Shown: in pieces, positions 35,336-62,946 of the stretch
How the letters are laid out: every line of letters begins with the position of its first letter
Position numbering within the stretch: position 1 is the first letter of the stretch
Assembly: GCF_029714945.1 (NCBI RefSeq)
Contig: NZ_CP121634.1
Coordinates: 1,075,001 to 1,139,000, forward strand
Source of the DNA: Bradyrhizobium sp. CIAT3101
Lineage (GTDB): Bacteria; Pseudomonadota; Alphaproteobacteria; Rhizobiales; Xanthobacteraceae
Direction of reading: 5' to 3'
Length of the DNA stretch: 64,000 nt
Notes under the pieces: generated by a model
Seen by the model: the letters and a program-made list of their open reading frames with translations, nothing else
Database searches by the model: none
What the model was told of the DNA's origin: nothing
Program-made: the position numbers and the translations under genes

Positions 35336-36142
35336 ATGTCCCGTTCGCAGCTTGTTGCTGAGCACTTGCCCTTGTTGCGCCGGTATGCGCGCGCCCTGAC
35401 GGGCAGCCAAGCCTCCGGTGACGCCTATGTCGCAGCCATGTTGGAAGCCATGCTGGGTGATCCGTCGGTGCTCGACGAGAGCCACGGGCCGCGCGCCGGC
35501 CTGTTCCGGCTGTTCACCCAGATCTGGAATTCGGTCTCGGTCAATGACGACGCCGAGGTGGCGACGCTGCCGATGCCGCCGGAGCGGCGGCTGTCCAACA
35601 TCACGCCGTTGCCGCGGCAGGCGTTTCTGCTGCTCTCGCTCGAGGGATTTTCGGAAGAGGAAGTCGCCTTTGTTCTCGCGACCGACGTCGCCGAGACGCG
35701 CCGGCTGGCTGATGCCGCCGGCCGCGAGATGGCGGCCGAGATTGCGACCGACGTCCTGATCATCGAGGACGAGACCTTCATCGCCATGGACCTCGAAAGC
35801 CTGGTGAAGAATCTCGGCCACAACGTCGTCGGCGTCGCGCGCACCCACGCCGATGCGGTAGCGCTGGCCAAGAACAAGCGGCCGGGCCTCATCCTCGCCG
35901 ACATCCAGCTCGCCGACGGCTCGTCGGGCCTGGATGCCGTCAACGAATTGCTCCGCACCTTCGAGGTGCCGGTGGTGTTCATCACCGCCTATCCGGAGCG
36001 CTTCCTCACCGGCGAGCGTCCGGAGCCGGCGTTCCTGATCTCAAAGCCGTTCCAGCCCGCGATGGTGTCGGCGGTGGCGAGCCAGGCGCTGTTCTTCCAG
36101 CGCAACTCGCGCAATCGCGCGCCGAAGGCGCCGGCGGCCTGA
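35336..36142 (+). CDS. phyR: Response regulator PhyR (sigma-like + receiver)
   Basis: A 268-residue anti-anti-sigma regulator. The N-terminal half mimics an ECF sigma factor (AEHLPLLRRYARALTGSQ; LPRQAFLLLSLEGFSEEEVAFVL). The C-terminal receiver has DVLIIEDETFIAMDLE, phospho-acceptor Asp in ILADIQLADG, FITAYPE and ISKPF. When phosphorylated it sequesters NepR and frees EcfG. Start at MSRSQLV; an ATG 15 nt upstream is also possible. Divergent from nepR-ecfG. Confidence 0.93.
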   Translation: MSRSQLVAEHLPLLRRYARALTGSQASGDAYVAAMLEAMLGDPSVLDESHGPRAGLFRLFTQIWNSVSVNDDAEVATLPMPPERRLSNITPLPRQAFLLLSLEGFSEEEVAFVLATDVAETRRLADAAGREMAAEIATDVLIIEDETFIAMDLESLVKNLGHNVVGVARTHADAVALAKNKRPGLILADIQLADGSSGLDAVNELLRTFEVPVVFITAYPERFLTGERPEPAFLISKPFQPAMVSAVASQALFFQRNSRNRAPKAPAA

Positions 36143-36164
36143 TAAGATTCGCATCGAATGAGCA

Positions 36165-36193
36165 AACGGCGCGTCTTATGGCGCGCCGTTTTT
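36165..36193. terminator. Rho-independent terminator after phyR
   Basis: A perfect 9-bp stem AACGGCGCG / CGCGCCGTT with an 8-nt loop, followed by a T-run; A residues on the other side make it potentially bidirectional, also ending 36216-37070 readthrough. Confidence 0.85.
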
Positions 36194-36215
36194 GCATTTG
36201 GGGCTTTGCTCCGAC

Positions 36216-37070
36216 TCAGCAGCTGCGGCAAATGCTGTGAAGCATCGAATTCAGCTTGGTATCGCTCGGCCCGGGCGATTTCGCATTCAGCTTAGCCTGG
36301 TCCGCGATCCAGGATTGGAGCAATTTTTCTCGCTCCGGCGACAGCCCGGGGTTTAGCTGGGTCCCATCGAAAGCCATGAGGACGGTGACACTCAGCAGAT
36401 CATCCTTTGCCACCTCGGGTGGCTTCGGGAACGGCGCGGATCGCTCGACCATGGCGAGGGCTGCGGCATCCAGCGGTGCGGAGCCGGTGCTTTCCACCAA
36501 AGCGTTCGAGATTAGTTTGCCGGAACGGTCGACCACGAATGTTACGCCAGCATTGGCCTTTTGTCCGACCGCCTCCGGAGGAAACGCCCTGTTGTGCCAG
36601 ACATGGTCGGTAACTGCCTTGCGCCAAGCGACCGTCGGATCGGATTCCGTGAGATTGGGGGCCGGCTTGTTCACCAGGAGCGCGAACGGCGGCACGTGAA
36701 ATTGCCGACCGGCGAAGTTAATCGGCACGGTGAACGAGAACGACTCGTCCCCTAATTCCGAAGGCGGGACCGGGAAAGGTTCGGCGCGAGCGATAATCAT
36801 GAGTGCTGCATCGTCGAGCGCCTGCGAGCCAGTGCTCTCAGTCAGCGCCCGCGAGATCAATTTGCCGGACCGGTCGAAGGTGAATGCGACCTTGGCATGG
36901 CCGGTTTGCCCTAGTCCGTTAGCTGGAAAATATTTGTTGCTGGCGATATGTGCCGCGATCCTTGCTCGCCAGGCTCTGACGTTCTCGGTCGGCGTGTCAG
37001 TCTGCGCAAGCGCAGGAAAAGCCAACAGCAATCCGAGGAGTGCAGCTGACAAATGTACTTTGATCTGCAT
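36216..37070 (-). CDS. Secreted protein with two TonB_C-like domains and C-terminal HSICRSC
   Basis: A 284-residue exported protein: signal peptide (about 1-22, ending PALAQ), then two tandem TonB C-terminal-like domains, each with FDRSGKLISRALTESTGSQ or VDRSGKLISNALVESTGSA followed by ALDDAAL or PLDAAAL and PFP.PP. The very end is HSICRSC. It has no transmembrane anchor or Pro-rich linker of true TonB. The same domain and ending recur in the next gene. Function unknown; envelope location inferred. Confidence 0.75.
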   Translation of the reverse strand: MQIKVHLSAALLGLLLAFPALAQTDTPTENVRAWRARIAAHIASNKYFPANGLGQTGHAKVAFTFDRSGKLISRALTESTGSQALDDAALMIIARAEPFPVPPSELGDESFSFTVPINFAGRQFHVPPFALLVNKPAPNLTESDPTVAWRKAVTDHVWHNRAFPPEAVGQKANAGVTFVVDRSGKLISNALVESTGSAPLDAAALAMVERSAPFPKPPEVAKDDLLSVTVLMAFDGTQLNPGLSPEREKLLQSWIADQAKLNAKSPGPSDTKLNSMLHSICRSC

Positions 37071-37105
37071 GGGGAGGGGGCTTTGTATGCAATGGCAGGG
37101 AGGAT

Positions 37106-37537
37106 TCAGCAGCCGCGGCAGATGCTATGTACATTTGCGCCTGCATCAGGCCGCCCTTGGTCTGGGGTCGATGGAGCCGCCTTCCGGTCCGACAAGAGTG
37201 GGACTTTCGACCCTCGCGGGGTAAAGGTGACAGGCACGGTGAAATTCAGGATATCGCCTTCCATCTCGGACGGAGGCTTTGGGAACGGCGCGGCCTTCCT
37301 CAGCATCGCCAGAGCCGCGTCATCGAAATCTTTAGAGCCGGAGCTCTCCGCCAAGGTCGCGGAAATGACCTTGCCCGTGCGATCGATCGCGACGGCAACC
37401 TTTACCGTGTGGCTCTGACGAGGTCCCTCCTGCTGAGCTTGTCGAGAATTTGAGCTGGTCTGCCGCGCAGATACCAGCGGCGACGGGATCAACAGCAATC
37501 CGAAAAACGCAGCCAGCAAAGGGAATCTCATCTGCAT
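37106..37537 (-). CDS. Secreted single TonB_C-like domain protein ending HSICRGC
   Basis: A 143-residue protein with a signal peptide (MQMRFPLLAAFFGLLL, ending SAR) and one TonB_C-like domain (IDRTGKVISATLAESSGSK, FDDAALAMLRKAAPFPKPP). It ends VHSICRGC, like the neighbour. Start at 37537 chosen because the signal peptide begins there. With the gene at 36216-37070 it forms a small tandem family, 35 nt apart on the same strand. Confidence 0.72.
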   Translation of the reverse strand: MQMRFPLLAAFFGLLLIPSPLVSARQTSSNSRQAQQEGPRQSHTVKVAVAIDRTGKVISATLAESSGSKDFDDAALAMLRKAAPFPKPPSEMEGDILNFTVPVTFTPRGSKVPLLSDRKAAPSTPDQGRPDAGANVHSICRGC

Positions 37538-37717
37538 CGGTGCAGATACTAATCGCGTTACGGTTGATTGCAAGCCATGGCGCTCGTATTGCGTTCTCGT
37601 CATTGTGGGCTATTCGAGCTATCGCGAAACATCACCGCTTGACGGCAATCTTCTTGCCCCCTTGGTATCTCGCCGCGATGACACCCATCGCCGCTTCAAG
37701 CCACCGGAGACGTGCCC

Positions 37718-38317
37718 ATGGACCAGCAACTGCTCGACCGCCTCGCCATCCGCGACCTCGTCGAGAACTGGGCGGTGTGGCGCGACGCTGGCGACTGGGA
37801 GCGGTTTGCCACCGTCTGGCATGAAGAGGGCTGGATGTCGGCGACCTGGTTTCAGGGGCCGGCGCGGGATTTCATGCGCGTCAGCCAGGAGGGTTTTGCC
37901 AAGGGCGTGCGCATCCTGCATTTCCTCGGCGGCACCAGCATCGACCTTGCGGGCGAGCGGGCCATTACGCAAACCAAGATGACGATCTCGCAGCGGGCTC
38001 TGGTCCACGACGTGCTGTGCGACGTCGTCTGCACCGGGCGGTTCTACGATTTCCTGGAGAACCGGCAAGGCAAGTGGGGCATCGTCCGCCGCCAGCCGAT
38101 CTACGAAAAGGATCGGATCGACCCCGTCGATCCTGCCGCGATGCTTCGCCTCGACCAGCAGGCGCTCGCCGCGCTGCCCGAAGGCTACCGTCACCTCGCC
38201 TACATGCAGGAGTTGATTGGCTACAAGGTCAAGCGCGACATGCCCGGCCTGATCGGCCCCGAGGTCGAGAAGCTCTATGGCGAGGGGCGGGACTGGCTTG
38301 CGGGGAAGGCCAAATAG
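37718..38317 (+). CDS. NTF2/SnoaL-like protein
   Basis: A 199-residue protein with an N-terminal SnoaL-like fold (LAIRDLVENWAVWRDAGDWERFATVWHEEG, in part: IRDLVENWAVWRDAGDW). Such domains act as small-molecule isomerases, dehydratases or binding modules. Ribosome site ggag about 9 nt upstream of ATG 37718; a GTG two codons earlier is possible. It stands alone; the integrase of the accessory island begins about 220 nt downstream. Confidence 0.7.
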   Translation: MDQQLLDRLAIRDLVENWAVWRDAGDWERFATVWHEEGWMSATWFQGPARDFMRVSQEGFAKGVRILHFLGGTSIDLAGERAITQTKMTISQRALVHDVLCDVVCTGRFYDFLENRQGKWGIVRRQPIYEKDRIDPVDPAAMLRLDQQALAALPEGYRHLAYMQELIGYKVKRDMPGLIGPEVEKLYGEGRDWLAGKAK

Positions 38318-38363
38318 ACTGCGGGCAAGCGAACGCGAGAAAAAAGTAAGGCGCGACTGGCAT

Positions 38364-38379
38364 CACCACGTTCGTGGTG
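38364..38379. promoter_or_regulatory. Perfect inverted repeat at the island boundary
   Basis: CACCACG-TT-CGTGGTG lies between the last core gene and the integrase, upstream of a TATAAT box (38439-38444). It could be a terminator, operator or part of an attachment site; the sequence does not decide. Confidence 0.4.
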
Positions 38380-42634: not shown

Positions 42635-42952
42635 ATGCCTTCCGTCGCCCCCGACCCCCTTCTCAAGGAACTCGGTCTGCGCTTTCGAAAAGCGCGCAAG
42701 GCTGCTGGCTTGTCCCAAGAGCAAATCGCCCTTCGGGCGAATATCAGCAGACCCCGCTATCGCGACATTGAAACGGGCGCCGCCGCCGCCCGCGCAACGA
42801 CCCTCGTCAACGTTGCTCGGGCCCTTGGCATGGAAATGATGTTGATCCCGCAGGCAATGGTGCCCGCCATACAGTCGATGCTGCAGCCAGCCAATGCCGA
42901 CGATGATCGTCCCGCCTTCACGTCAGACGTCGAAGAGGAGGAAGGATCATGA
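42635..42952 (+). CDS. hipB: HipB-like antitoxin, XRE-type helix-turn-helix
   Basis: A 105-residue DNA-binding protein: RFRKARKAAGLSQEQIALRANISRPRYRDIETG holds the helix-turn-helix (core: LSQEQIALRANISRPRYRDI). The acidic tail (DVEEEEGS) may contact HipA. Start at MPSVAPD with gagag upstream; an in-frame ATG 18 nt earlier has none. It overlaps hipA by 4 nt (ATGA). Confidence 0.85.
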   Translation: MPSVAPDPLLKELGLRFRKARKAAGLSQEQIALRANISRPRYRDIETGAAAARATTLVNVARALGMEMMLIPQAMVPAIQSMLQPANADDDRPAFTSDVEEEEGS

Positions 42953-44193
42953 ATCGGGCTGTCCTCGCGGCTGAACGGATCCAATCCCTCGATATTTCAT
43001 TGGACGGTCTTGCAGTCGGCACGCTCGTCCGAACGCCGGGTGACTACAACGCGTTCAATCTTTTACCCGCTTATCGGAGCTTGAGTGACCCGCCAATCTT
43101 CAGCCTGTCGCTTCGCTCAGCGGATGGCGGCCTCCGCCGGGATCCCAAACCTATACGCGGCGCGCTGCCGCCATTCTTTGCGAACCTGCTGCCCGAAGAG
43201 AAACTCCGCGAAGCGATGGAAAAACACCACGCGACGTCAGTAAGACCCGGAAATGACTTCGATCTGTTGGCTGCGCTGGGTACCAACCTACCAGGAGCGG
43301 TGCGCGCCCTACCAAGTGATGGCATCCCCGTTCCAGCCGGTCCCGAGGCCGAGGGTAAGAAGAAGGCGCGTTTCTCGCTCGCCGGCGTCCAAATGAAGCT
43401 TTCCGTTATAAAAAATTCCGGAAAGGAGGGGGGCATCACACTCGCCGTCGACGACGAACAAGGGCAGTACATCGCGAAATTTCCCTCCCTCACACACATC
43501 GGGCTCTCGGAAAACGAATTCGCAATCCTGGCCTTGGCGGAAGCCCTCGGGATGGAAGTGCCGGACCGCGAACTCGTCGACAAGTCGGAGTTCGCTGGCA
43601 TTCCGGAAGAATTCAACACCACGTCCACAGGCAAGGTGCTGCTTGTCCGCCGCTTCGACCGCGGCGCTGACGGTGCGCGTGTGCATATGGAAGACTTTGC
43701 GCAAGTCTTCGGCCGCTATCCCTCCGAGAAATACACGGGTGCAGCGTATCACAATATCGCCGCAGCGTTGACCAGCGGCGTCTCCTTCGATTCAGCAATT
43801 GATTTTGTTCGACGCCTCGCGCTCACCGCGATTACCGGAAACGGCGATATGCATCTCAAGAATTGGTCGCTGCTCTATCTCGGTGATGGCCGAACCCCAA
43901 CGCTATCGCCCGTCTACGACGTACTTTCAACAATTCCCTACATCCCGAAAGACGGACTAGCCCTGAGCCTCGCAGGCGAAAAGTCGTTCAAGGCGCTAAC
44001 TCCAGAGCGCTGGCGCAATTTCGCAAACCGCAGCCGTCTTCCGGAGGGGGCCGTTATAACAGCCGTGGCCGAGACTGCGGCGGCCGTGCGAGACAAGTGG
44101 TTGGTTCTTCCAGAACGCGACGTCGTGCCTAAGCAGGTCCTCACCCGGATCGACGCCCATATCGACGAAATGGCAAACGTTCTCAACCCGTAG
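42949..44193 (+). CDS. hipA: HipA-like serine/threonine kinase toxin
   Basis: A 414-residue HipA-family kinase: N-terminal HipA_N domain (LPPFFANLLPEEKLRE), RFSLAGVQMKLSV (ATP-binding loop), GQYIAKFPS, then the catalytic loop AITGNGDMHLKNWSLLY (Asp about 300) and metal-binding PVYDVLSTIPY. HipA phosphorylates targets such as glutamyl-tRNA synthetase in E. coli, stalling growth; the target here is unknown. Complete length and both catalytic motifs, so probably active. Confidence 0.9.
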   Translation: MNRAVLAAERIQSLDISLDGLAVGTLVRTPGDYNAFNLLPAYRSLSDPPIFSLSLRSADGGLRRDPKPIRGALPPFFANLLPEEKLREAMEKHHATSVRPGNDFDLLAALGTNLPGAVRALPSDGIPVPAGPEAEGKKKARFSLAGVQMKLSVIKNSGKEGGITLAVDDEQGQYIAKFPSLTHIGLSENEFAILALAEALGMEVPDRELVDKSEFAGIPEEFNTTSTGKVLLVRRFDRGADGARVHMEDFAQVFGRYPSEKYTGAAYHNIAAALTSGVSFDSAIDFVRRLALTAITGNGDMHLKNWSLLYLGDGRTPTLSPVYDVLSTIPYIPKDGLALSLAGEKSFKALTPERWRNFANRSRLPEGAVITAVAETAAAVRDKWLVLPERDVVPKQVLTRIDAHIDEMANVLNP

Positions 44194-51520: not shown

Positions 51521-53730
51521 TCACTCGTCAATGTCGCGGAAAAGGGAAGAGAGAGCTGCATGCTGAGGAGTTGAGGAACTCGTCGGCGCTGTCGTTGACG
51601 GACTCGGCTGATAATCGTCATACATGTCGCCGAGTGCGCGGCTTATCCCGTCCGACGCAGCGCGGAGAACGCCGCTATAATCCCCTCTACAAGACAATGC
51701 GCTTACGAAGATTTTCAATGCGGACTCAAAGAGATCAAAATATTCGTCAGGCGGGGTATCGGCGTCCCACTCTCCTCGTAAGCGGCGTATTTGATCATCA
51801 ACGCTTTGAAAGAGCTCCGTCTCGATCCGGTCCATGAGAGCCTCGCGCTCATCCTCTGTGAAAAGCGCACCCAGTCGAGGCTCTTGGAGAAGACTTGCGT
51901 CCGCATATTCAATTGCGGCGTTCTCCAAAGCGCTTTTGAGTTTCTGAAGATGCTCGGAGGGAAGCAAGCCCTGATCGTGCAGTTTGATTGCAAGATCGGC
52001 GTCAGTGTCATCCTTAATTGGCACGTGATAGTGGCGAAGTCGATCCAGGACATCTGGACGTTTTTCAAGCATCAGCAGTGAAAAGCTCTTGTTTGAGCGG
52101 TAGGAGAGAAAGCTTGCAATTTGGTAATCCTCGAGCGAGGAGAGACGTTTCGCCAGAAGGTCATGCAAGCTGTCGGGCACGATCACCGGGGCGCCTGCGA
52201 CGACACATCCCGCACAAACGACTTCCCTTGCAATTGAATCAGGCTTTGCCCCTCTTAGGTAGATGTCCACGAGCTCAGCGTTTTGAGCAACATAATGGGC
52301 GAATGCATCGCCGACCGTCGGATGCTTGTACGTCCAAAATTGTCCATGATCGTCGGCGGACAGCAGAAGCAGGCTGCCATTCAGTGCGACGAGCTGCTCA
52401 CGCACAGAACCGATCGTCACGCCGAATGCTGTCGCTGCCGGCGCAATGTCCTTCTCGGAGACAGGCGATCTCACCTGATCGCCATTCATGAATACCACCG
52501 CAATGGCAGCTCGACAGTCAGTGGATAAGTTGGTGATCTTCTCCAACAAGAATTGTTCGGGCTCCGCAAAGAACTTCAGCAACGAGTCTCTCGATGTATT
52601 CATGGACCCCGCAAAGAAGCTCGACCCCAGCCGGCGCGCTGTCTCGGGCAGAAAATCTTTCCGCTCGGCTATCTCTGGCAAGGCAGGCTTGATCTGTGCG
52701 CGGAAAGTCGGCGACTGATCGCCAAGCTTGACATGATTGTAAAGGATTTGAGCCTTTTCCTGCGTGGATAGCTCATGCACGTTGATGACGACCTGACTCT
52801 TGCTCAAGATCGGCAGCGCCTGAAACTTCAAGTCGCTTCTTGCTGCTTGCCAGATATAGTCTCTGGAGGTCATCAAGAATCTCGCGCCCGAGGCGACTGC
52901 CGCTTGCATGAGCGGGAATACTTGGTTCCAGGCTTCGGACGTCTGCCGCTGATACTGGGTGTTCCCCACGCATCATCAATCCAGAAGAATTGTCGACCGC
53001 CTGGAGCCAGGCGCTCTTGAAGCTCTTGGGGCGAAGTAACCTTGACAGTGGCGCACTGCCAGATGTCAGCAGCACCAATTCCCAAACTTGCTCCGATTGT
53101 GGACTTGCCAGCGGCAGGCGCCCCCAGCAGGAGCACCAGGTTATGCGCACTGATGGCTCGCACGCTCTTGCGATGTGCTTCCGTGACGACCAAGCGTTGG
53201 AGATCGTTACCCATGGCCGACAGGATCAACTGCGCCTGCGCGTAGGCGCGCTCATCGAGGAATTCGTTGAGATCGCCCAGACCGTACAGCCGCGGAGCCA
53301 TCATCCGCAGCCGCGGAGACGACCGGACCTGCCTTACAATCCAATCATAGCCAAACACGCGGCAGCGTCCCACCCCTTGCTTCTCGAAGGCTTCCTTGAT
53401 CTTTAGTTCGCTTGCGCCTGATACGGAATGATTTGTCAGGATGATGTAGTCGGCTGCCAATCGCCGCTTCGCAAGCCTTCTTGCCTTCTCCAGCTCATCA
53501 CCGAGAATACTCATCGTCAGATTCGAGGGCTTCGACGTGAATTTACACTGGATCGTTGACGCACCTGCAGCCGGATCGTCCCCGTCCCATCGACCAATAA
53601 ACGCGCCATCGCGACCGGCGTCATTGCCAGGCAGAAAATTCTGGACAGGACGACGCAGGCATTCCTCGGCAAGCGCAATGCAAAGATCTTGAAAAGCCTT
53701 CCAGCCGAGAAGATGCAGAGGATACGTCAT
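51521..53730 (-). pseudogene. Nuclease-STAND NTPase (defence type), single frameshift
   Basis: Two frames make one protein of about 735 residues. The N-terminus has a restriction-endonuclease-like domain (GNDAGRDGAF, TIQCKFTSKP: D...QxK). A STAND-type NTPase follows: Walker A LLGAPAAGKSTIGAS and Walker B FFWIDDAWG. Then the frame breaks at 52964-52967, where a run of four C (plus strand) needs a fifth to join NTQYQRQTSEAW. The long helical C-terminus (SLSSLEDYQIASFLSYRS region and beyond) would be the sensor. Similar architectures act as anti-phage NLR-like proteins. It could be an assembly error. Confidence 0.75.
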
Positions 53731-54254: not shown

Positions 54255-55526
54255 CTATGCCTCGGCTCCAGGGCCGTCCAGCAATGGCGTGTCGAGGCTC
54301 TCTATTTCAGGCATGGCTTTCCCAGCGATGCCTTGCAAATCTCCATACATTCCGATCGTGGACTCAATCACGCTCGTTAATTGACTTTCGCGCTTTGCCC
54401 AAACGCGTGTCATAAACTTGCGTTCTTTATCCAGATCCTCGCGCATGTCATTGAAGCGTTCAACGATAGCCTCTAGACGTTGCCGGAATCTCTTTCCGGT
54501 TAGATACTGATAAACTTCCTCAGCCTTGCTCAGCTGGCCCTGCTGCATGGTACGCGCGCTGTTGACGGCTACAAGGGACTGCCGGAGGGCTACCGCCACC
54601 GGGACCGCGCAGCGCGGATGAGCTATCCAAATGCCGTCCACCAAATCGAAGTTTTCGATGTCCTTTGGAAGGGCGTTCGAGATGACCAACGCAACATCGG
54701 CGCCGCAGCGTCTTTGATCACCCCGTAACTTGGGCAGCCAACCGTCGGACCAGTTCTTGGTGCGTTTTGATTCCCACAAGATCACGCCCGCAGCCACCCC
54801 GATGGCGCCGTTAACACGCTGGATAACATCGGCGCCGAGTTCGCCCTTCGCCACTGGCTCAATTACGTCCGTCGGAAAGCGCGCCCTGAGTACGTCTTCC
54901 AGTTCAAGCTCCAGGACCTCCCCCTGAGCCTGCTGTGAGGTCTGCTCGGCCTTTCGCTTCAATTCCTCGATTGTGCGGGTCATGCCGGCGATCTGTTGAT
55001 CTTTTTCTGAAACCTTGAGCTTTAGCTCGTCCTCGGCCTCCTGCTTGGCCTTCGTCCTCACGCCGGCAAGCTCCTCTTGGACCTTCTTCTGAACGGTCAG
55101 ATCAAGCTCTCTCCGGGCGTCCTCAATTTCGCGCTGTTTGCGCAGGAGCTCTGCCTGGTCCTTTTGGGCCGCGGCGAGCTTCTCGTTATTTTTCGCCAAC
55201 AGCTCTTTCAGCTCAGTCGTTTCCCTGTCCTTGTTCTCGAGCTCCAGGGCGGCCGCCTCGCGAGCCTTCTTGGCTTCGTTGGCTGCGATTTGCGACCGTT
55301 CACCTTTCAACTTGGTGGCGACCAACTCGTCGATCTGCTCCCGCGCTCTCGCAACCTCAGCCTGCTGTGTCCGAACTTCTTCGGATCTCCTTGCAAATTC
55401 GGCTTCTTTGGCTGCTAGCTGGCTCTGAAATTGTTTCTGGGCCTGCTCCAGCAATGGCGCCGCGAGCGATTCGGTCAGCTTTATCTCGCCGCTGCATTTT
55501 GGGCAGGTGATAGTTGGCTCGATCAT
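54255..55526 (-). CDS. DUF2130 family coiled-coil protein with nuclease-like core
   Basis: A 423-residue protein: N-terminal zinc-ribbon half CPKCSGEI, a long charged coiled coil (about 30-210, many EELA/KKAR heptads), then ILWESKRTKNWSDGWLPKLRGDQ, whose E-S-K resembles a PD-(D/E)XK-type active site, and a second helical part. DUF2130 proteins occur in many bacteria, function unproven. Last gene of a three-gene unit with KTSC and OLD genes. Confidence 0.8.
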   Translation of the reverse strand: MIEPTITCPKCSGEIKLTESLAAPLLEQAQKQFQSQLAAKEAEFARRSEEVRTQQAEVARAREQIDELVATKLKGERSQIAANEAKKAREAAALELENKDRETTELKELLAKNNEKLAAAQKDQAELLRKQREIEDARRELDLTVQKKVQEELAGVRTKAKQEAEDELKLKVSEKDQQIAGMTRTIEELKRKAEQTSQQAQGEVLELELEDVLRARFPTDVIEPVAKGELGADVIQRVNGAIGVAAGVILWESKRTKNWSDGWLPKLRGDQRRCGADVALVISNALPKDIENFDLVDGIWIAHPRCAVPVAVALRQSLVAVNSARTMQQGQLSKAEEVYQYLTGKRFRQRLEAIVERFNDMREDLDKERKFMTRVWAKRESQLTSVIESTIGMYGDLQGIAGKAMPEIESLDTPLLDGPGAEA

Positions 55527-55555
55527 AGTACCGTCCGTTCTTCGCTGCAGCTCCT

Positions 55556-55771
55556 CTATCTGACTCGCTTGAATTGGAAACCGGCATCCTTGATAAATGT
55601 GTTCAAGTAGCTACCCACCGAGGTGGCCGCTTTGAGGCCTTTGAACAGCGCCTCGGGTACAGCAAAGTAGTGATACTCACTGCCATTGCGGAATTGTACG
55701 CCCAAGACTCTTGTTTCCTCATCGTATCCAACTGCGCTCACAGTGCTGGATCGCACTTCCACGTAGTCCAT
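55556..55771 (-). CDS. KTSC domain protein
   Basis: A 71-residue protein: DYVEVRSSTVSAVGYDEETR, VQFRNGSEYHYFAVPEALF and SVGSYLNTFIKDAGFQFKRV are the conserved blocks of the KTSC domain (here SVGSYLN at the usual K-T-S-C end). Such domains are found alone or fused to nucleases and toxins; some bind nucleic acid. It lies 16 nt after the OLD nuclease stop and 29 nt before the DUF2130 start. Confidence 0.78.
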   Translation of the reverse strand: MDYVEVRSSTVSAVGYDEETRVLGVQFRNGSEYHYFAVPEALFKGLKAATSVGSYLNTFIKDAGFQFKRVR

Positions 55772-55787
55772 TGTTGCCCCCAATGTC

Positions 55788-57713
55788 TCAAGTCAACGCC
55801 AGGATCGCTGCACAAAGGCTATCAAGCGTCGGCATCTTTGCGCCTTTCTCTCTCAGGATCGCCAAATGATCCCCAATGTGGACGGTGTTCTTGACAAAGC
55901 TGCCGGACGGATTGCCCAATCCCTTGGTGGCCGCTGAATAGGAACTCTCCCAAAGCGCGGCTCCTGCCTCTTGCTTGAGGATCGAGCCGAGATTCTCCGG
56001 CCATATCGCATAGCTGCTGGTCCACACCGGATTGTCGGGGAAAGGCGTGGCAACATCACCGCCCAGCAGGGCTAGAATTTTCAGGTTATCAAGTTTGTGA
56101 AGATTGCGGCGTCCCGGATTTTGTTCGTTGCCATCGGAATCAAAGACGACGAAGGTCGGAATGCCCAGTTCCTTTGCTATGAGCAGCGGCTCAATGAGCG
56201 AACTCTTTCCATTCGCTGCAACAATGTTGCAGCCTGATTTGCGATAGTCGTCCCAGAGAGACAAGTATGTCATCCACGCGGTGATGTAAGCCGTGTCTTC
56301 CAAACCCTCGACCAGCACCAGCTTCTGGGTGAAAAACATCTCGTTGAGGTGTGGCTGCAGAGCTTGATGGAGCTGCGCACGCTCTGCCTCAATCGGCGTC
56401 ACCTTCTCTCCGGAGATCTCAGATAGCCTCTCGACGACTTTTTCGCAGGTCGTCCAGCGTATGCTGGACTCCCTTTTTGTCTCATCCCTTCGAACCAGAC
56501 GCACATGTTCAAAATGCCTTCCGGATACAAAGTACGGACTGTGGGTTGAAACCAGGATCTGCGCATTTCCCTCGCTCAACCTTTTGAAAACAGAGGCCAA
56601 ATGACGTGCTTGCGGGGGATGTTGATAGAGCTCCGGCTCCTCGCATCCCAGAATCAGCCGAGGCTGCGACGTCTCGTTCGTCGCGGCGAGCTCTTGAAGG
56701 AGAGCCAGCAGATAGGATCGCTGAAGGCCGTGCCCAAATCTGGCGAGGTCACCTGAAAACGTTCCCTCGCTCGCGAATAGCCGCGCCGCAGGATCGGCTA
56801 TCTGCACAGACTTGACCGGATCCTCGGTCCATTCCAGCCGCGCAACCGCCTCTGGGTGGGCCCATTCGCCGAGCTTAGCGGTCAGCGCTTGGGAGAGGTC
56901 GTCTAACGCGGCTTGCTGCTTCTGGATGATTGTCTTGTAAGCATCGAGGGTGGTGTCTCTAAGTGAGGCGATCTCTCCATCAAAATTCACCTTTGAACGA
57001 ACTGTCCGGGCGAGCAGCTTGCCCAGGGCCGTGTTGCGCCCTTCGACGTTCTCCTTGGTCGCATCTTTGACCGCGGGCACGTAGACCCATTGGATATAGC
57101 GGGACAGACGATCGCCGCCCTTGCTGAAGCCGTAGAATTGATCTTCGCTATCAATCAGAACGCATCGTTCCGGGTGGTCTTCCTCGTATGATCGAAGAGC
57201 TTGGCGATTGGCTTCTTTGCTGCCTTTTTTGGGAAGACCGAATTCGGGGTGAGTCTCTCGTATCTCCTCATAGATCCCCGCCAATTCACCCGCAGGAGCT
57301 CCGTCGTTGAATCTTCGGAAGAACTCGCTGAACTCCTTCATTGCGCTGCGTTTGGCGAACTGGCGAACCGTAGCCCTGCGCGTCGTTTCGCTGAATTCCG
57401 CAACCGCTGACACGACCAGGATACCTGACCGGTAGTATTCGGCGAAATCTGCTTGCGCCTCAGGCTCAAGATCGTGAAAAGTCAATGTAATCTCGATCGG
57501 CTCTTTTACGTTGCCGTTGTGGAAATCCTCAACGTCAAGCTCGATGAGATTTGTCGGAGCTTCCTCCGTCTGACGAAAAAAGATGTTCAGCGCGCAGAGA
57601 ACGGTAGATTTACCTGCGCCGTTCGGGCCCACGAAAGCTGTGTAGTCATCCAGGTCGACCACGGTATTTTTGAACGAACGGAAATTCTTAATAGCAATCG
57701 ACTTGATCTTCAA
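55788..57713 (-). CDS. OLD family ATPase-TOPRIM nuclease
   Basis: A 641-residue protein. ABC-type ATPase: Walker A FVGPNGAGKSTVL (about 27-39), signature-like GHGLQRSYLLALLQE, Walker B LILGCEEPELYQHPPQ, switch VSTHSPYF. TOPRIM: VLVEGLEDTAYI and FVVFDSDGNEQN. This is the class 1 OLD architecture; with no UvrD-like helicase beside it, it is not Gabija. OLD proteins nick DNA and restrict phage. Start at TTG 57713 (ggtggggg site 5 nt upstream) so that the protein begins [M]KIKSIAIKNFRSF, as in relatives. Confidence 0.88.
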   Translation of the reverse strand: MKIKSIAIKNFRSFKNTVVDLDDYTAFVGPNGAGKSTVLCALNIFFRQTEEAPTNLIELDVEDFHNGNVKEPIEITLTFHDLEPEAQADFAEYYRSGILVVSAVAEFSETTRRATVRQFAKRSAMKEFSEFFRRFNDGAPAGELAGIYEEIRETHPEFGLPKKGSKEANRQALRSYEEDHPERCVLIDSEDQFYGFSKGGDRLSRYIQWVYVPAVKDATKENVEGRNTALGKLLARTVRSKVNFDGEIASLRDTTLDAYKTIIQKQQAALDDLSQALTAKLGEWAHPEAVARLEWTEDPVKSVQIADPAARLFASEGTFSGDLARFGHGLQRSYLLALLQELAATNETSQPRLILGCEEPELYQHPPQARHLASVFKRLSEGNAQILVSTHSPYFVSGRHFEHVRLVRRDETKRESSIRWTTCEKVVERLSEISGEKVTPIEAERAQLHQALQPHLNEMFFTQKLVLVEGLEDTAYITAWMTYLSLWDDYRKSGCNIVAANGKSSLIEPLLIAKELGIPTFVVFDSDGNEQNPGRRNLHKLDNLKILALLGGDVATPFPDNPVWTSSYAIWPENLGSILKQEAGAALWESSYSAATKGLGNPSGSFVKNTVHIGDHLAILREKGAKMPTLDSLCAAILALT

Positions 57714-58471
57714 AGACGCCCCCACCAAATGCAGTCAAAAGTAGTACAGCCCGTCAGACCTTTCGGATAATGCCCGTAAGCTACCGCGGACAATTTCAAG
57801 GTCGCAGTAGCAGCTGGGGCGTTGACCCGGCGGCCGTCAGACATGGCCGCAAAGCGTTTCGTCTCCGCGTCCAACGCGGATGGATCGCTGCTCGTTTGTT
57901 TGTGAGCTTACCCTGATGTCGCGCAGCATTTCACCAAGTTGCCTGCTGCTGTGTCTGATGGACATTGCACAGTTTTGATTTGACGCAGCTTTTGCGCATC
58001 GCCTCTGTTTGAGATGACCGTTGACCTTGGACCGTTTGTTTGCTGGACCTACTGGCTGTTTGAAACGCTCGCGACGAGCCGAAAAGAAATCCCGAGCCTG
58101 GCAAGAACGATCGGCGGAGTGAAGAGTTTTGTCGACTCTATCGCGCCATCCAGAAATCATCCACAAGATGAATCAACAATTAACCAAATGAGGCTAGGAT
58201 TTTGCTGTGGGGCGCTTCAGCCGAATCACGTTTTGTGGTCATGCTAGGCACGGGTACGACGGAGAGAGACTTGGGCAAGAAAGCGCAAAACGGCTCTCAA
58301 TCCAAGGAGCCGAAACACGCATTGCGTACCGCAAGCTCAAGCCGCGGCGAAAGCAAGAAGTCGATGCGGACAGCCACGAGGCCGCGCATTGATTCGACGT
58401 TATATTTCATCGAAAGAGAAAGCGACGATCTGCCGCTAAGTCATTTTGAGAAGTTTGACATAACTTGACGC
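57714..58471. other. Intergenic region separating two defence-type operons
   Basis: Several short frames exist on both strands without ribosome sites or family features. It presumably contains the promoter of the OLD operon, which reads leftward. Confidence 0.5.
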
Positions 58472-60070
58472 TCAGGGAGCGGCCTGCAGCTGCTCGATGG
58501 CACGAGCGCGGCTTTCGAATGAGCCGGAGATGGTGCTCGCGCCCTTTGAGAGGCGTTGATTGAGCAGCTTTAGTTTCCTGATTTCTTGACGAAGTTCATC
58601 ATAGCGCATTCCCTTTCGAAGCAATCTTGCTTTTACCTCGCGCGCGTTGAAGAGCCCGTAAAGATCGGAACCGCCCCTTTTTTCGATGCGCTGTATGGCC
58701 TCGGCCGCGAGAGCGATTCCCTTGTCCAGATCGGTCGAGTGGCGCCACTCCCGCTTGGCGCGCAAGATGAGCGCGTTGATCAGGCCGCTTTCGCTATGAC
58801 CGCGCTCGTGCTCGACTTCAGCTTCCACCAAAAGACGCTGCACTTCCCCATCATCGAACTGATCTCGATCAAGCAGGCAAGAAGCATGCATGTTGAGTAT
58901 GTTGCCCCGGCCAGTGGGGTCAATCATCTTCGCAAAAATGGGCTCGACAAGTTGTAGCAACTTGACGACAGCCTCATTGTCGCTATCGGGTTGCTCGCTG
59001 AGAATTTTGGCTTTTTTGAAGACTGCATTGGCGTACTGATACAGAAGTTCATACTGAGAGTAATATTCAATGCAGATGTCGATGGTCTCGCTGGCGCGAT
59101 CGAAATCACCGATTAGTCGGTATAGATCGGCGGAGATCTCCGCCAGCTTGATCTCGCCCGCGCGGTTCTTTGAGTCCTGCTCCTTCAACAGATCGCGCGC
59201 TCTTTCCAGCGCCTTCTCGCAGAGCCGATACTCGTCCTTGTGGAGATACGCCCTGGCCTGGTATCGTATCGCAAGCCCTTGCCAGTCGAGCAACCTGGCT
59301 TTGCTCGCGATTTTTTCCAGTTGCTTGGCGACGCTCAACACTTCTTCGATATCGCGTTTCTTCAACAGTGCCTGTAGCAACTCCTCACTAAGAAGAAGAT
59401 GCAATGGCTCTGTCGACCGCGGGTCGAGGACCGCGGTAATCCTCTTTGTCCGGTCCGCCGGCGCTGTTCGCCAAGGATTGATTGTGCAACGCAACGCTTC
59501 GTGAACCAAGCTGTCGTTTTTGGTTGCAAACAAGGCATCTTGCTTGAAATCGTCGAACGCGCGGATGAGGCGGCGTAGCGTGGCTCGAAGCTCAGGCTGT
59601 AGCGCTGCGCGGATATACGCGGTCGTATACCGGGTCATCGCCCAGGGGGGGGTCAAAAAATACTCTAGGTAGGTTATTTCGGCTTCATATTTTCCCTTCA
59701 GTGCCGGCTTGGTCATCGAGGCGTGATCGCGAAAGGCTGAAAGGACGAGCTCAAAATCCCGTAACTGCTCCGAGGGAGCAAACTGGCTTGCGAAGATATA
59801 TCGTAAGACCTTGCGGATTGGCTCTGCGATAGAAAGTTCGCGATCTTTCTCGTAGCTCTGAAAAAAGGCCTCGATGTTGCTTTCGCGCAGGTTATGTCTC
59901 TCGCACAATTGTTGGTAGGTCTCTTGCAAAAAGAACCTTGGGAATCCAAGGACTGATAAGGGCGCCAGTTCCTCACCGGCGTGACTGGTCAGCAACTGCA
60001 AGAGGACGCTGTCGAGCGTTCCGATGTACGCCTTGGTCTTAAATCTAGCAAAGGGTGCTTCACTACTCAT
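58472..60070 (-). CDS. Helical-repeat (TPR-like) protein, fourth gene of bL17 operon
   Basis: A 532-residue soluble protein from MSSEAPFARF. Residues about 230-420 show TPR-like helix pairs (EVLSVAKQLEKIASKARLLD, AIRYQARAYLHKDEYRLCE, ISADLYRLIGDFDRASETI, YQYANAVFKKAKILSEQ). The first 200 residues are helical and unrecognised. Its ATG overlaps the ATPase stop by 8 nt, with gagg upstream. A sensor or scaffold role is likely. No named family. Confidence 0.72.
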   Translation of the reverse strand: MSSEAPFARFKTKAYIGTLDSVLLQLLTSHAGEELAPLSVLGFPRFFLQETYQQLCERHNLRESNIEAFFQSYEKDRELSIAEPIRKVLRYIFASQFAPSEQLRDFELVLSAFRDHASMTKPALKGKYEAEITYLEYFLTPPWAMTRYTTAYIRAALQPELRATLRRLIRAFDDFKQDALFATKNDSLVHEALRCTINPWRTAPADRTKRITAVLDPRSTEPLHLLLSEELLQALLKKRDIEEVLSVAKQLEKIASKARLLDWQGLAIRYQARAYLHKDEYRLCEKALERARDLLKEQDSKNRAGEIKLAEISADLYRLIGDFDRASETIDICIEYYSQYELLYQYANAVFKKAKILSEQPDSDNEAVVKLLQLVEPIFAKMIDPTGRGNILNMHASCLLDRDQFDDGEVQRLLVEAEVEHERGHSESGLINALILRAKREWRHSTDLDKGIALAAEAIQRIEKRGGSDLYGLFNAREVKARLLRKGMRYDELRQEIRKLKLLNQRLSKGASTISGSFESRARAIEQLQAAP

Positions 60071-60896
60071 TGCGGGGGACCTCATTGGCCACCTGAACTC
60101 GAAGCCGTCTTGGAGGAAGCAATATCTTTATGGCAGCCGCCATACGCATCGGGTCGGTGGAGTAGTCCTCTAAGGCTCTCTCCACAATGCTCTCGATATT
60201 CTCATCGATCTTTCGCCCGTGTTCGCGCAACCAATCAAATAGCTCTTCGCGATCGGTTATCGGACCGAGGGAATACTCGCAGCAAACGCGTTTGGTGTGA
60301 TAGTCGATATTCTCGCTGGCGAAGCTCTGGCAGAAAAATGCAATCTTGGCAGAAGGGATGAGCTTCGGAAGCTTCAGAAGGTGCTTGTATGTCCACGTCC
60401 GGATGATGGGATCGCACTTTTCGTAGTTATCGACGATCAAAACGAATGGTCGCTGCCCAAAATAGGTCGCCAGATCTCGTGCAAATGCGTCAAAAAGATC
60501 AGAGTAATGCAGCCAAAGATTATCTTCTGTCTGGGCTCTACTGATTGCGTCGATCTGGACATGCTGCGAGTTATTTACTTGCACGCCCTGCACAAAGCTT
60601 AGAGAGACCGATGCCGGCGTCCGGCAGGCCTGCAGGTTGGTCTGAAATGCATGCCCGACACCCAAATCGTTAAGAATCGTGTAGATGATGTCTGGTGGCT
60701 TCTCGAGACTATTGAGCTGAACGAAGGCAGACATGTGGCTGTCTTTGATCTGCTCGTATAGCCACTCGCAGAGCATCGACTTGCCGTAGTCTTTGGGGGC
60801 GCTGATGACACAAAGTCTCAGACCGTCATTGACCAGAAATGCCCGTAGCCTTTCACGCCCTTGCTTGTGGTTGACCAGCGGCGAGGGCTTTGTCAT
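60063..60896 (-). CDS. P-loop ATPase (AAA/STAND-like), third gene of bL17 operon
   Basis: A 277-residue NTPase: Walker A variant SAPKDYGKSMLCEWL (about 33-47), Walker B RPFVLIVDNYEKCD (about 148-161), then IAFFCQSFA (sensor-like) and a C-terminal winged-helix-like segment (LFDWLREHGRKIDENIESIVERAL in part). It resembles compact STAND/AAA ATPases lacking repeats; the repeats are on the next gene, which overlaps it by 8 nt. Overlap with the upstream membrane gene is 4 nt (ATGA). Confidence 0.78.
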   Translation of the reverse strand: MTKPSPLVNHKQGRERLRAFLVNDGLRLCVISAPKDYGKSMLCEWLYEQIKDSHMSAFVQLNSLEKPPDIIYTILNDLGVGHAFQTNLQACRTPASVSLSFVQGVQVNNSQHVQIDAISRAQTEDNLWLHYSDLFDAFARDLATYFGQRPFVLIVDNYEKCDPIIRTWTYKHLLKLPKLIPSAKIAFFCQSFASENIDYHTKRVCCEYSLGPITDREELFDWLREHGRKIDENIESIVERALEDYSTDPMRMAAAIKILLPPRRLRVQVANEVPRNE

Positions 60897-61189
60897 TTCG
60901 CGGACGAGGTAATCTTGACGTTTTTGCTGGCGTGATCGATCGATACATCTTCGATGCTGGTCCCCTTGCCGGCCGCCCCGACTTCGATGTCCGTGCCAGC
61001 GGCTTTGATTCGCCGAACTGTTGAGACATCCGCAGGGCTGTGCGTTTCAACGGATGCGCCGCCCAGCGGCGACCAGTTGATGCGCTTGAGTCTCGATCTC
61101 AACAAGATGACTGCGACAACGGCAAAAATTGCCAGTGCGGCGATAAGGATTGTCGTGTCAGATAGTTTTGCTGCAATCGTTTCCATCAT
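60893..61189 (-). CDS. Single-pass membrane protein, second gene of bL17 operon
   Basis: A 98-residue protein: one transmembrane segment (LIAALAIFAVVAVILL, about 15-31), a basic stop-transfer (RSRLKRI), and a polar tail with short beta-type repeats (TDIEVGAAGKG, SIEDVSIDHASKNVKI). The basic residues suggest the tail is cytoplasmic, where it could contact the ATPase. Its ATG is 1 nt after the bL17 stop. No named family. Confidence 0.7.
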   Translation of the reverse strand: MMETIAAKLSDTTILIAALAIFAVVAVILLRSRLKRINWSPLGGASVETHSPADVSTVRRIKAAGTDIEVGAAGKGTSIEDVSIDHASKNVKITSSAK

Positions 61190-61190
61190 T

Positions 61191-61637
61191 TTAGCCCTTC
61201 ACATCGTCTGGATCGTCTTCCTTGGTCCCGTAGCGGTATTGGCCCGGCGCCTTATAGGCGGCAGCTCCCTTTGCGGTCGCGTCTCGATCGACAAACTCGA
61301 TGACAGCCATAGGAGCGCTGTCGCCATATCGAAAGCCAGCTCGGATGATGCGCAGATAGCCGCCTGGACGTTGGGCGTATCGTGGCCCGATGTCTTCGAA
61401 CAGCTTCTTGAGGACGTCTTTGCGAGTGAGAACAGCAGCCACTTGCCGCCGGTTGTGCAAACTGTCCTCTTTGCCCTTGGTAATTAGTTTTTCTACGATA
61501 GGCCGAAGTTCTTTGGCCTTCGGTATCGTGGTCAAAATCTGCTCGTGAAGCAACAGATTGGATGCGAGATTGCGGAACAGAGATCGCCTGTGGGCGGATG
61601 TCCGGCCCAATTTGCGATGCCCATTTCCATGTCTCAT
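61191..61637 (-). CDS. rplQ-like: Ribosomal protein bL17 paralogue, outside the rpoA operon
   Basis: A 148-residue protein with the full bL17 core: [54 protein letters not shown] and VIEFVDRD. A 30-residue C-terminal extension ([22 protein letters not shown] in part) is unlike the standard protein. Normally rplQ lies beside rpoA in a ribosomal operon, which is not here. It is the first gene of an operon with a membrane protein, an ATPase and a repeat protein. Some substitutions ([16 protein letters not shown]) resemble non-alphaproteobacterial bL17. Confidence 0.82.
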
Positions 61638-62946
61638 TTGGCCGTCCGAGCCGAGCTTGGTGAAAAGAAATGAAAAGAAATCTATTGACTCGTGTTGGTT
61701 CAACGGAACCGCAATGTCAAGTGGCAAGTTCCACATATAAACGCTGGAATAGCAACGGGATCAACCGGGAGGGCGCAGCTGGGCCGAGGGCGCTTCAACG
61801 CGCACAGCTGGAAATTCGAACCTCGCGCAGCTCCACTGCGTTGACGCTGCCACCGCGACTGTCCGGCATGCCGAAGTCGACGTATTGATGCATTTATCAT
61901 GGTCGTTACATGTTGCGAGCATTATATGAAACATGCCATGCAGCATTTCAACGGATCCGGCCGGTCTCACGCGCGACTCCGAACTCTTTTGCCTCGTCGT
62001 GCATTCTTTCTGCAGCGATCATTTTTCTCATCAAGGATCGTTTGATCGCCAGGGGGGGATTCCATCAGTATCTATCCGTCAATCGGAAATTGGAGCGCGG
62101 GCTGCCAATCTCACTACTGGATCGGGGTAACCAGATAGATTGGGTGCTGGGCTTTACCTCTCTCAGGTCGCGGCGAACCGCGCCAGTGATTAACGCGCGC
62201 GGCAACAGGCGCATACCGAACGGTACAGGAGAGAATGTGGGTTCTGGGGATGCCTTTGGGATGCGGTCAAAGGTCTTTGGCAGGCCTTCAAAAGTAGGTT
62301 TTGATCTAATAAACGAAATGCACGAACAGCGGTGGGCCACAATAGCTCGCTCGCTCATTAACGAGACAATGCGGCCAAGTGCCTTCACAACGATCAGAGG
62401 GAAGAAACCTTAAGCGTAGCGACGCCATGCTGCGCAACTAGTTGAGGGACTGGATCAGGTCACCGAGCTTGGCTCGACAACGATAAGGCAATGCGGCTAG
62501 ATGTCCTCGAGTATTGGAGCCCATCGATCGATTGGAGCCGCGTTGTTCAGGGTGATATCTCCGATCCGGTACGGCGGAATTTCAAGAATTTGGTGACTCT
62601 CTGCCATTGTTGCGGGCATTGGCGAGAGAGGCATCGATCTTTACGGCTCACTGCTTCACCGAGACCGCTCTACACTCCCGAAATCCGTTATATGCGAAAG
62701 AAACGGCTGGACGAATGGAAGCGCCTATCACTAAAGCCGAGGGCAACATACATCGTTCCGCGCATCTTGTGGATGAAAGGGGCGCTGAGATGCCCTACCT
62801 CATCAAGCCAGCGGTTCAAGGAGTGTGGCGTTCGATGCTTTTGATCCGGCTGAACTTAGCGACGCTGATCCCGACACCATTGGACGCCGGTGGCTTGACC
62901 GAGCTGGCTACTCGGACGCACAGCCTCATTGAGGATGACGAAGGTT
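61638..62946. other. Region with decayed frames, possible HNH-type relic
   Basis: No intact gene recognised. A plus frame near 62570-62745 reads RNFKNLVTLCHCCGHWRERH and later RLDEWKRLSLKP, which faintly recalls the FxNLixLCxxHH...LxxWK end of HNH-like or effector-associated proteins. Other frames (61910-62413) are open but show no family features. The promoter of the bL17 operon must lie at the left end. Confidence 0.35.

Follow-up and report, generated by a model that had tools for sequence, protein, structure and literature searches.

Why does a second gene for the ribosomal protein bL17 stand at the head of a small operon among defence-type genes? The initial annotation of this stretch of DNA, here called the window (64,000 nucleotides, G000:C1:1075001-1139000, from a one-contig genome of 9.37 Mb with Bradyrhizobium as relatives), had described four genes on one strand, encoding a bL17, a membrane protein, an ATPase and a helical-repeat protein. 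All four were found where they had been placed. ORF5, a small gene absent from that description, was added as the fifth member of what is treated below as a cassette. The second bL17 is referred to as bL17p. The features are as follows, in positions of the window.

58155..61753, no strand: whole cassette, a 3.6-kb block common with G390 (Bradyrhizobium sp. CCGUVB4N), 86% identical
61638..61753, minus: conserved leader of bL17p, from the alignment with G390
61191..61637, minus: bL17p, the alternative bL17, 148 aa, with a tail of its own (PF01196, TIGR00059)
60893..61186 (or 61189), minus: single-pass membrane protein, 97 aa (hydropathy)
60063..60896, minus: STAND-like P-loop NTPase, 277 aa (AAA_22)
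58472..60070, minus: TPR protein, 532 aa (TPR_12 below cut-off; AlphaFold2 model)
58241..58468, plus: ORF5, convergent small gene, 75 aa, upstream GTG start possible (dN/dS against G390)

The junctions could be reproduced in part. The membrane protein and ATPase genes overlap by 4 nt and the ATPase and TPR genes by 8 nt, as described. The 1-nt gap between bL17p and the membrane protein gene holds solely with the first of two ATGs; because only the second ATG is kept in G390, this gap becomes 4 nt. The stop codons of ORF5 and the TPR gene are separated by 3 bp.

The same genes in the same order were found in G390, which is listed as the same species. A blastn comparison of the surroundings of both copies, 90 kb in G000 and 60 kb in G390, gave 58155-61753 (86.2% identity) as the sole match longer than 150 bp. 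The G390 cassette is located at 1.29 Mb, and the counterpart of the left flank of the window island (36000-38369), at 98% identity, lies at 8.535 Mb in that genome. The difference between backbone (98%) and cassette (86%) suggests that the two copies were acquired separately. Since G390 carries the same 3.6 kb elsewhere in its chromosome, bL17 belongs to the unit, and its inclusion in the operon thus held: it moves within the common block as an integral member and is no stray neighbour. Homology to the G390 backbone breaks off at 38369, a short way ahead of a P4-type integrase gene (38502), and picks up again about 40 kb further on (78481, in the continued window; the island reaches to about G000:C1:1153480). 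The resumed sequence lies in a different part of the G390 chromosome, so that the island has a rearranged far side.

Per-gene dN/dS values between the window and G390 are 0.04-0.18, and the common block starts 116 bp upstream of the bL17p start codon; the gene set is therefore more than a product of chance. That a rearranged island merely brought a bL17 gene next to a three-gene operon unrelated to it is highly improbable. Islands do shuffle genes and no adjacency in unrelated taxa was found, but order and junctions are repeated at an unrelated position in G390 at 86% DNA identity, and all three proteins that were searched (ATPase, TPR protein and bL17) appear to lie together on one further contig. 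We conclude that bL17p very probably belongs to a mobile cassette as a genuine member under selection. The TPR gene of G390 is interrupted in frame (L005:10192-11792; ORFs of 207 and 311 aa compared to 532 aa in the window), and the system is accordingly not kept intact everywhere.

The ATPase was detected in 2 of 265 genomes of the genus and in 1 of 198 genomes of a family sample, namely the window itself. A profile search of an order sample returned 2 of 397, the window and one remote LAL/MalT-type protein (E = 7.7e-6). A second bL17 occurred in the same two of the 265 genus genomes; two weaker bL17 matches in the draft G326 (720 contigs, best E = 1.1e-34) were taken as fragments. The protein database yielded four ATPase relatives among 349 candidates and five TPR proteins, including that of the window, among 8000 scored. 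P0001 is the ATPase of G390 and is also recorded on a contig of 9,769,664 bp, so at least one more genome carries the ATPase. P0002 (ATPase, 57% identical), P0006 (TPR protein, 64%) and P0010 (bL17, 91%) are each recorded on a contig of 23,158 bp, from which we infer that they share one contig and form a divergent third locus. P0003 and P0007 belong to Bradyrhizobium genosp. A (contig of 8,387,507 bp); a reading that bL17p is absent there was dropped, as the contig record seems to be that of the cluster representative. P0011 and P0012 stand for two cluster members each. On two further contigs with bL17p (1,790 and 67,040 bp) the ATPase was not found in the protein database search, and bL17p may also occur without it. 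Recurrent co-location with bL17 in unrelated taxa, which the initial annotation had named as support for a system, was not found: the set comprises two of 265 genus genomes and one presumed metagenomic contig. Homologues of the downstream genes do adjoin bL17 in G390, and none of the searches linked the cassette to a named defence family.

The bL17p protein is a full-length member of its family. It matched PF01196 at 1.1e-38 and the TIGR00059 equivalog with 151.5 bits (cut-off 70.05). The host rplQ is located 2.7 Mb away (G000:C1:3844095-3844472) and its product is 63% identical to bL17p. GC3 is 0.60 for bL17p and 0.60-0.64 over the cassette genes, compared to 0.89 for host rplQ. The tree including the host copy, which had been proposed initially, was built from 66 distinct rows (77 of 151 rows given; midpoint root, few columns). 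In this tree bL17p forms one side of a 100/100 branch, a clade of its own apart from host rplQ. A recent duplication of host rplQ was ruled out by the same branch, which places the Bradyrhizobium copies elsewhere. With a dN/dS of 0.043 over 148 codons, bL17p is under the strongest purifying selection in the cassette. Its body is identical at 109 of 117 positions between the window and P0010, whereas over the same step to the third locus the ATPase falls to 57% and the TPR protein to 64% identity.

Near-invariant positions were defined by at least 90% conservation in 146 canonical rows (29 from Bradyrhizobium and the 117 best database hits, chosen for similarity to the query). On this measure bL17p retains 68 of 78 near-invariant positions and 22 of 24 K/R positions. 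As judged from its sequence, the basic body is of the rRNA-binding type and looks fully ribosome-compatible. Positions 22, 26, 29, 38, 54, 58 and 99 are altered in every bL17p that covers them; non-conservative among these are A to R at 22, L to K at 54, and G to D or N at 58. Residues 1-126 of the query match residues 1-126 of the commonest bL17 chain in the PDB, presumably that of E. coli, and on this basis the two numberings were taken as equal. A study of trigger factor on E. coli ribosomes reports bL17 to lie at the tunnel vestibule, with helix 54-61 as a contact (PMC12752688). The core of the bL17p tail (residues 131-145) is highly conserved, with 15, 15, 15, 14 and 14 of 15 residues identical across five bL17p proteins, and its motif GxYRYGTK was found in none of the 146 canonical rows. 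A DNA pattern derived from the tail gave no match in viral contigs. bL17p itself matched 23 phage records (best among the 20 matches listed, 55.5% identical) and 64 plasmid records (best among the 30 listed, 61.3%). Among the listed rows, four from phages and several from plasmids carry an rplQ annotation or are apparently chromosome-sized records, and from these annotations and lengths we read the listed matches as probable canonical copies.

These properties bear on the idea of a protective replacement, in which the exit region or canonical bL17 comes under attack from the system's own output or from that of a competitor. The carrier would then survive with bL17p as a resistant substitute, much as duplicated target genes act in some antibiotic producers. 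The apparent ribosome compatibility of bL17p, its rank as the most constrained gene and its changed rim residues 54 and 58 would fit, and the first position in the operon would suit an immunity that is made first. However, no toxin or biosynthetic gene was found in the cassette with Pfam, NCBIfam and PADLOC, and simple resistance leaves the tail unique to bL17p unexplained. We consider this explanation unlikely.

The leader of bL17p was compared between two sequences, the window and G390. It contains a dyad, GGAAC...GTTCC at 61705-61732, with TTGACA within the dyad. A longer in-frame ORF starting at 61736 was ruled out because indels of 3 nt and 1 nt separate the two genomes. No Rfam match was obtained in 58000-62000 and no sigma-70 promoter-like site was seen in the leader. 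In principle, bL17p could gauge ribosome assembly by binding to its own leader whenever 23S rRNA runs short, in the way that many ribosomal proteins control their operons, and a change in ribosome synthesis would thereby release or silence the cassette. Its first place in the operon, the conserved leader with the dyad and the basic, rRNA-binding type of body agree with such a role. It is nevertheless distinctly improbable, given that the leader has no Rfam match and that, to our knowledge, bL17 is not an autoregulator.

The ATPase matched AAA_22 slightly above threshold (2.6e-6, 28.2 bits, cut-off 27). In the five aligned ATPases, the Walker A motif APxxxGK(S/T) is present throughout (A33-P34-x3-G38-K39, then S or T) and D156-N157 of the putative Walker B is invariant. 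A profile match to a LAL/MalT-type protein spans residues 14-105 only. The AlphaFold2 model was poor (pLDDT 48), and Foldseek with this model gave no match at 1e-3, the best being CED-4 at 0.013, a hit to which no weight was given. At residues of about 97-125, between the P-loop half and Walker B, there is an insert in which hydrophobic residues alternate (VQGVQVNNSQHVQIDA type); it is present in all five homologues and was left unmodelled by AlphaFold2. The TPR protein matched Pfam TPR_12 below the cut-off, and its AlphaFold2 model reached a mean pLDDT of 84.9. Residues 21-96 form helices and two short strands that fit a winged helix, in a part that the structural comparison barely covered. 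The remainder is a MalT-like TPR superhelix with superstructure-forming repeats.

Similarity thus links the ATPase to STAND NTPases of the MalT/LAL type and the TPR protein to a MalT-like superhelix, and the pair looks like a STAND switch that is split over two genes. Since the two modules lie in overlapping genes and not in one polypeptide, in the window as in G390, we say that the pair would work like a STAND switch and do not call it a classical member. What had been termed an ATPase switch is hereby refined to what looks like a MalT/LAL-type STAND NTPase with its winged-helix/TPR half as a separate gene. STAND conflict systems of bacteria are treated in the literature (PMC10907252). The ATPase had no match in phages or plasmids, the TPR protein none in plasmids and the TPR profile none in viral contigs. 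A phage or plasmid origin of the cassette was rejected, the ATPase, the TPR protein and ORF5 being without matches in the sets searched.

MalT-type proteins are metabolic regulators, and the three matches to MalT would also suit an ordinary regulatory or stress module, a LAL/MalT-type ligand sensor lacking a DNA-binding domain, with a spare bL17 that hitch-hikes. We give this possibility little weight, because the cassette is rare (2 of 265 genomes), mobile and among defence-type genes at both places, and because a passenger bL17p would decay, yet its dN/dS is 0.043.

The membrane protein has its best 19-residue hydropathy mean (2.96) at residues 11-29 of the 97-aa form. Following the positive-inside rule, the 57-residue tail is predicted to be cytoplasmic. 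No Pfam or PADLOC match was found for this protein; a genus search gave 3 matches in 249, one of them weak (E = 0.008, with stops inside) and taken as chance. An amyloid-type signalling motif common to the membrane tail and the ATPase insert, which seemed alike by eye, was discarded after a shuffling test: 108 of 2000 and 57 of 2000 shuffled tails of the two membrane proteins reached the summed motif score. Among ten single motif pairs, one stayed below 2% (34 of 2000), and the others gave 264 to 1451 of 2000.

ORF5 is open in the window and in G390, with 60 of 75 residues identical and a dN/dS of 0.159. The five other frames over it have dN/dS values of 0.27-1.98 and stops in at least one of the two genomes. 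A genus search for ORF5 at E = 0.01 gave 5 of 257, of which the window and G390 were convincing; the three further matches (E = 0.006-0.009), with stops inside, were taken as chance. ORF5 had no match in Pfam, PADLOC, PHROGs or NCBIfam, and none in plasmids.

Defence-type genes surround the cassette in both genomes, as had been noted for the window, and the two neighbourhoods differ. The window has a phage-type integrase (38502), HSDR_N, HipA, nSTAND3, DUF2130, KTSC and an OLD-type nuclease. G390 has a CAP12-type TIR, an SMC-like ATPase, a HamC2-like DUF3223, transposases, a reverse transcriptase and Trypsin_2 with Endonuclease_NS. The OLD gene reported next door is real (55788-57728); it is not part of the block common to G390. 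As evidence for a defence function this context is circumstantial. Several neighbours were recorded in their own right. On the minus strand of the window, 54255-57728 holds an OLD-type nuclease (AAA_15 and OLD-like TOPRIM), a KTSC protein and a DUF2130 protein in a row, and a DUF2130-like stretch of 67 residues (73%) recurs at L009:975-1175. The nSTAND3 protein, related to PADLOC PDC-S73 (51521-53730, minus), is encoded by two ORFs that overlap (52873-53730 and 51521-52969), as though the gene had been interrupted in frame. A HipA-like kinase gene lies at 42949-44193 (plus) in the same island. Beside the second cassette, G390 encodes the HamC2-like DUF3223 protein (L005:4892-5638) and a trypsin-like peptidase joined to a non-specific endonuclease domain (L005:14068-16173).

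Taken together, the cassette is probably a STAND-type conflict system. The ATPase and the TPR protein would form one switch of the MalT/LAL kind, one gene supplying the NTPase and the other the winged helix with the TPR sensor. This switch may be anchored by the small membrane protein, which may instead be a membrane-damaging output. bL17p would take its place at the exit-tunnel rim of some ribosomes, or stay free as a mimic of that surface, and the switch could recognise it by its tail and changed rim residues. Once the ribosome is attacked or stripped at the exit rim by an invader, or bL17p changes its state, the TPR sensor would let the NTPase assemble, and the membrane protein would then stop growth. 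As a whole, a mobile conflict cassette, most likely directed against phages, in which a split STAND switch watches bL17p and acts through the membrane protein, is a tentative but plausible reading. The best single idea for bL17p, a bait or marker placed on the ribosome, is possible though rather doubtful. Somewhat unlikely is the fullest version, a ribosome-guarding innate immunity in which a mobile STAND switch brings its own tagged ribosomal protein as sentinel or decoy at the nascent-chain exit and, upon attack, has its membrane partner kill or arrest the cell.

The gene set, found in a few soil bacteria, suggests that a defence system may use a part of the ribosome as its bait or marker. 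Should this be so, one of the core proteins of the ribosome would have a dedicated place in a mobile, immune-type cassette, and one could ask directly which phage functions hit the exit region of the ribosome and how cells sense them. On a more modest reading, a bL17 that moves horizontally, looks compatible with the ribosome and has its own conserved tail offers a natural starting point for work on specialised ribosomes, and a STAND switch split over two genes, together with its membrane partner, is compact enough for reconstitution.

As first proposed, the cassette received no system name from PADLOC, Pfam, NCBIfam or PHROGs. PADLOC 2.0.0 on the five genes and their relatives gave best E values at chance level (0.018 for bL17, 0.025 for the ATPase to Csx3), and Pfam, NCBIfam and PADLOC recognised no effector domain in the cassette genes. 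A literature search, which covered few subscription papers, turned up no description of bL17 within a STAND or defence operon. Compared to MalT of E. coli and LAL-type STAND NTPases, the cassette has its NTPase and TPR sensor in separate genes and lacks a visible LuxR-type DNA-binding domain, and its operon adds a membrane protein and bL17. Bacterial STAND conflict systems include Avs, bNACHT and the effector-associated-domain STAND systems. Like these, the cassette combines a STAND-like NTPase and a repeat sensor with a membrane or effector partner in a defence island; unlike these systems, it is split, counts a ribosomal protein as a member and has no PADLOC match better than E = 0.018. The guard/decoy logic is known for plant NLRs, whereas the guarded bait here would be a ribosomal protein. 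bL17p resembles canonical bL17/rplQ in its TIGR00059 score far over the cut-off and in 68 of 78 near-invariant positions, and differs in being 63% identical to the host copy, in its separate clade and own tail and in not lying beside rpoA. Ribosomal paralogues for zinc limitation are known for bL31, bL33, bL36, bS18 and uS14; we know of no such paralogue of bL17. Like them, bL17p could stand in as a subunit for its housekeeping counterpart; unlike them, it shares its operon with a STAND switch.
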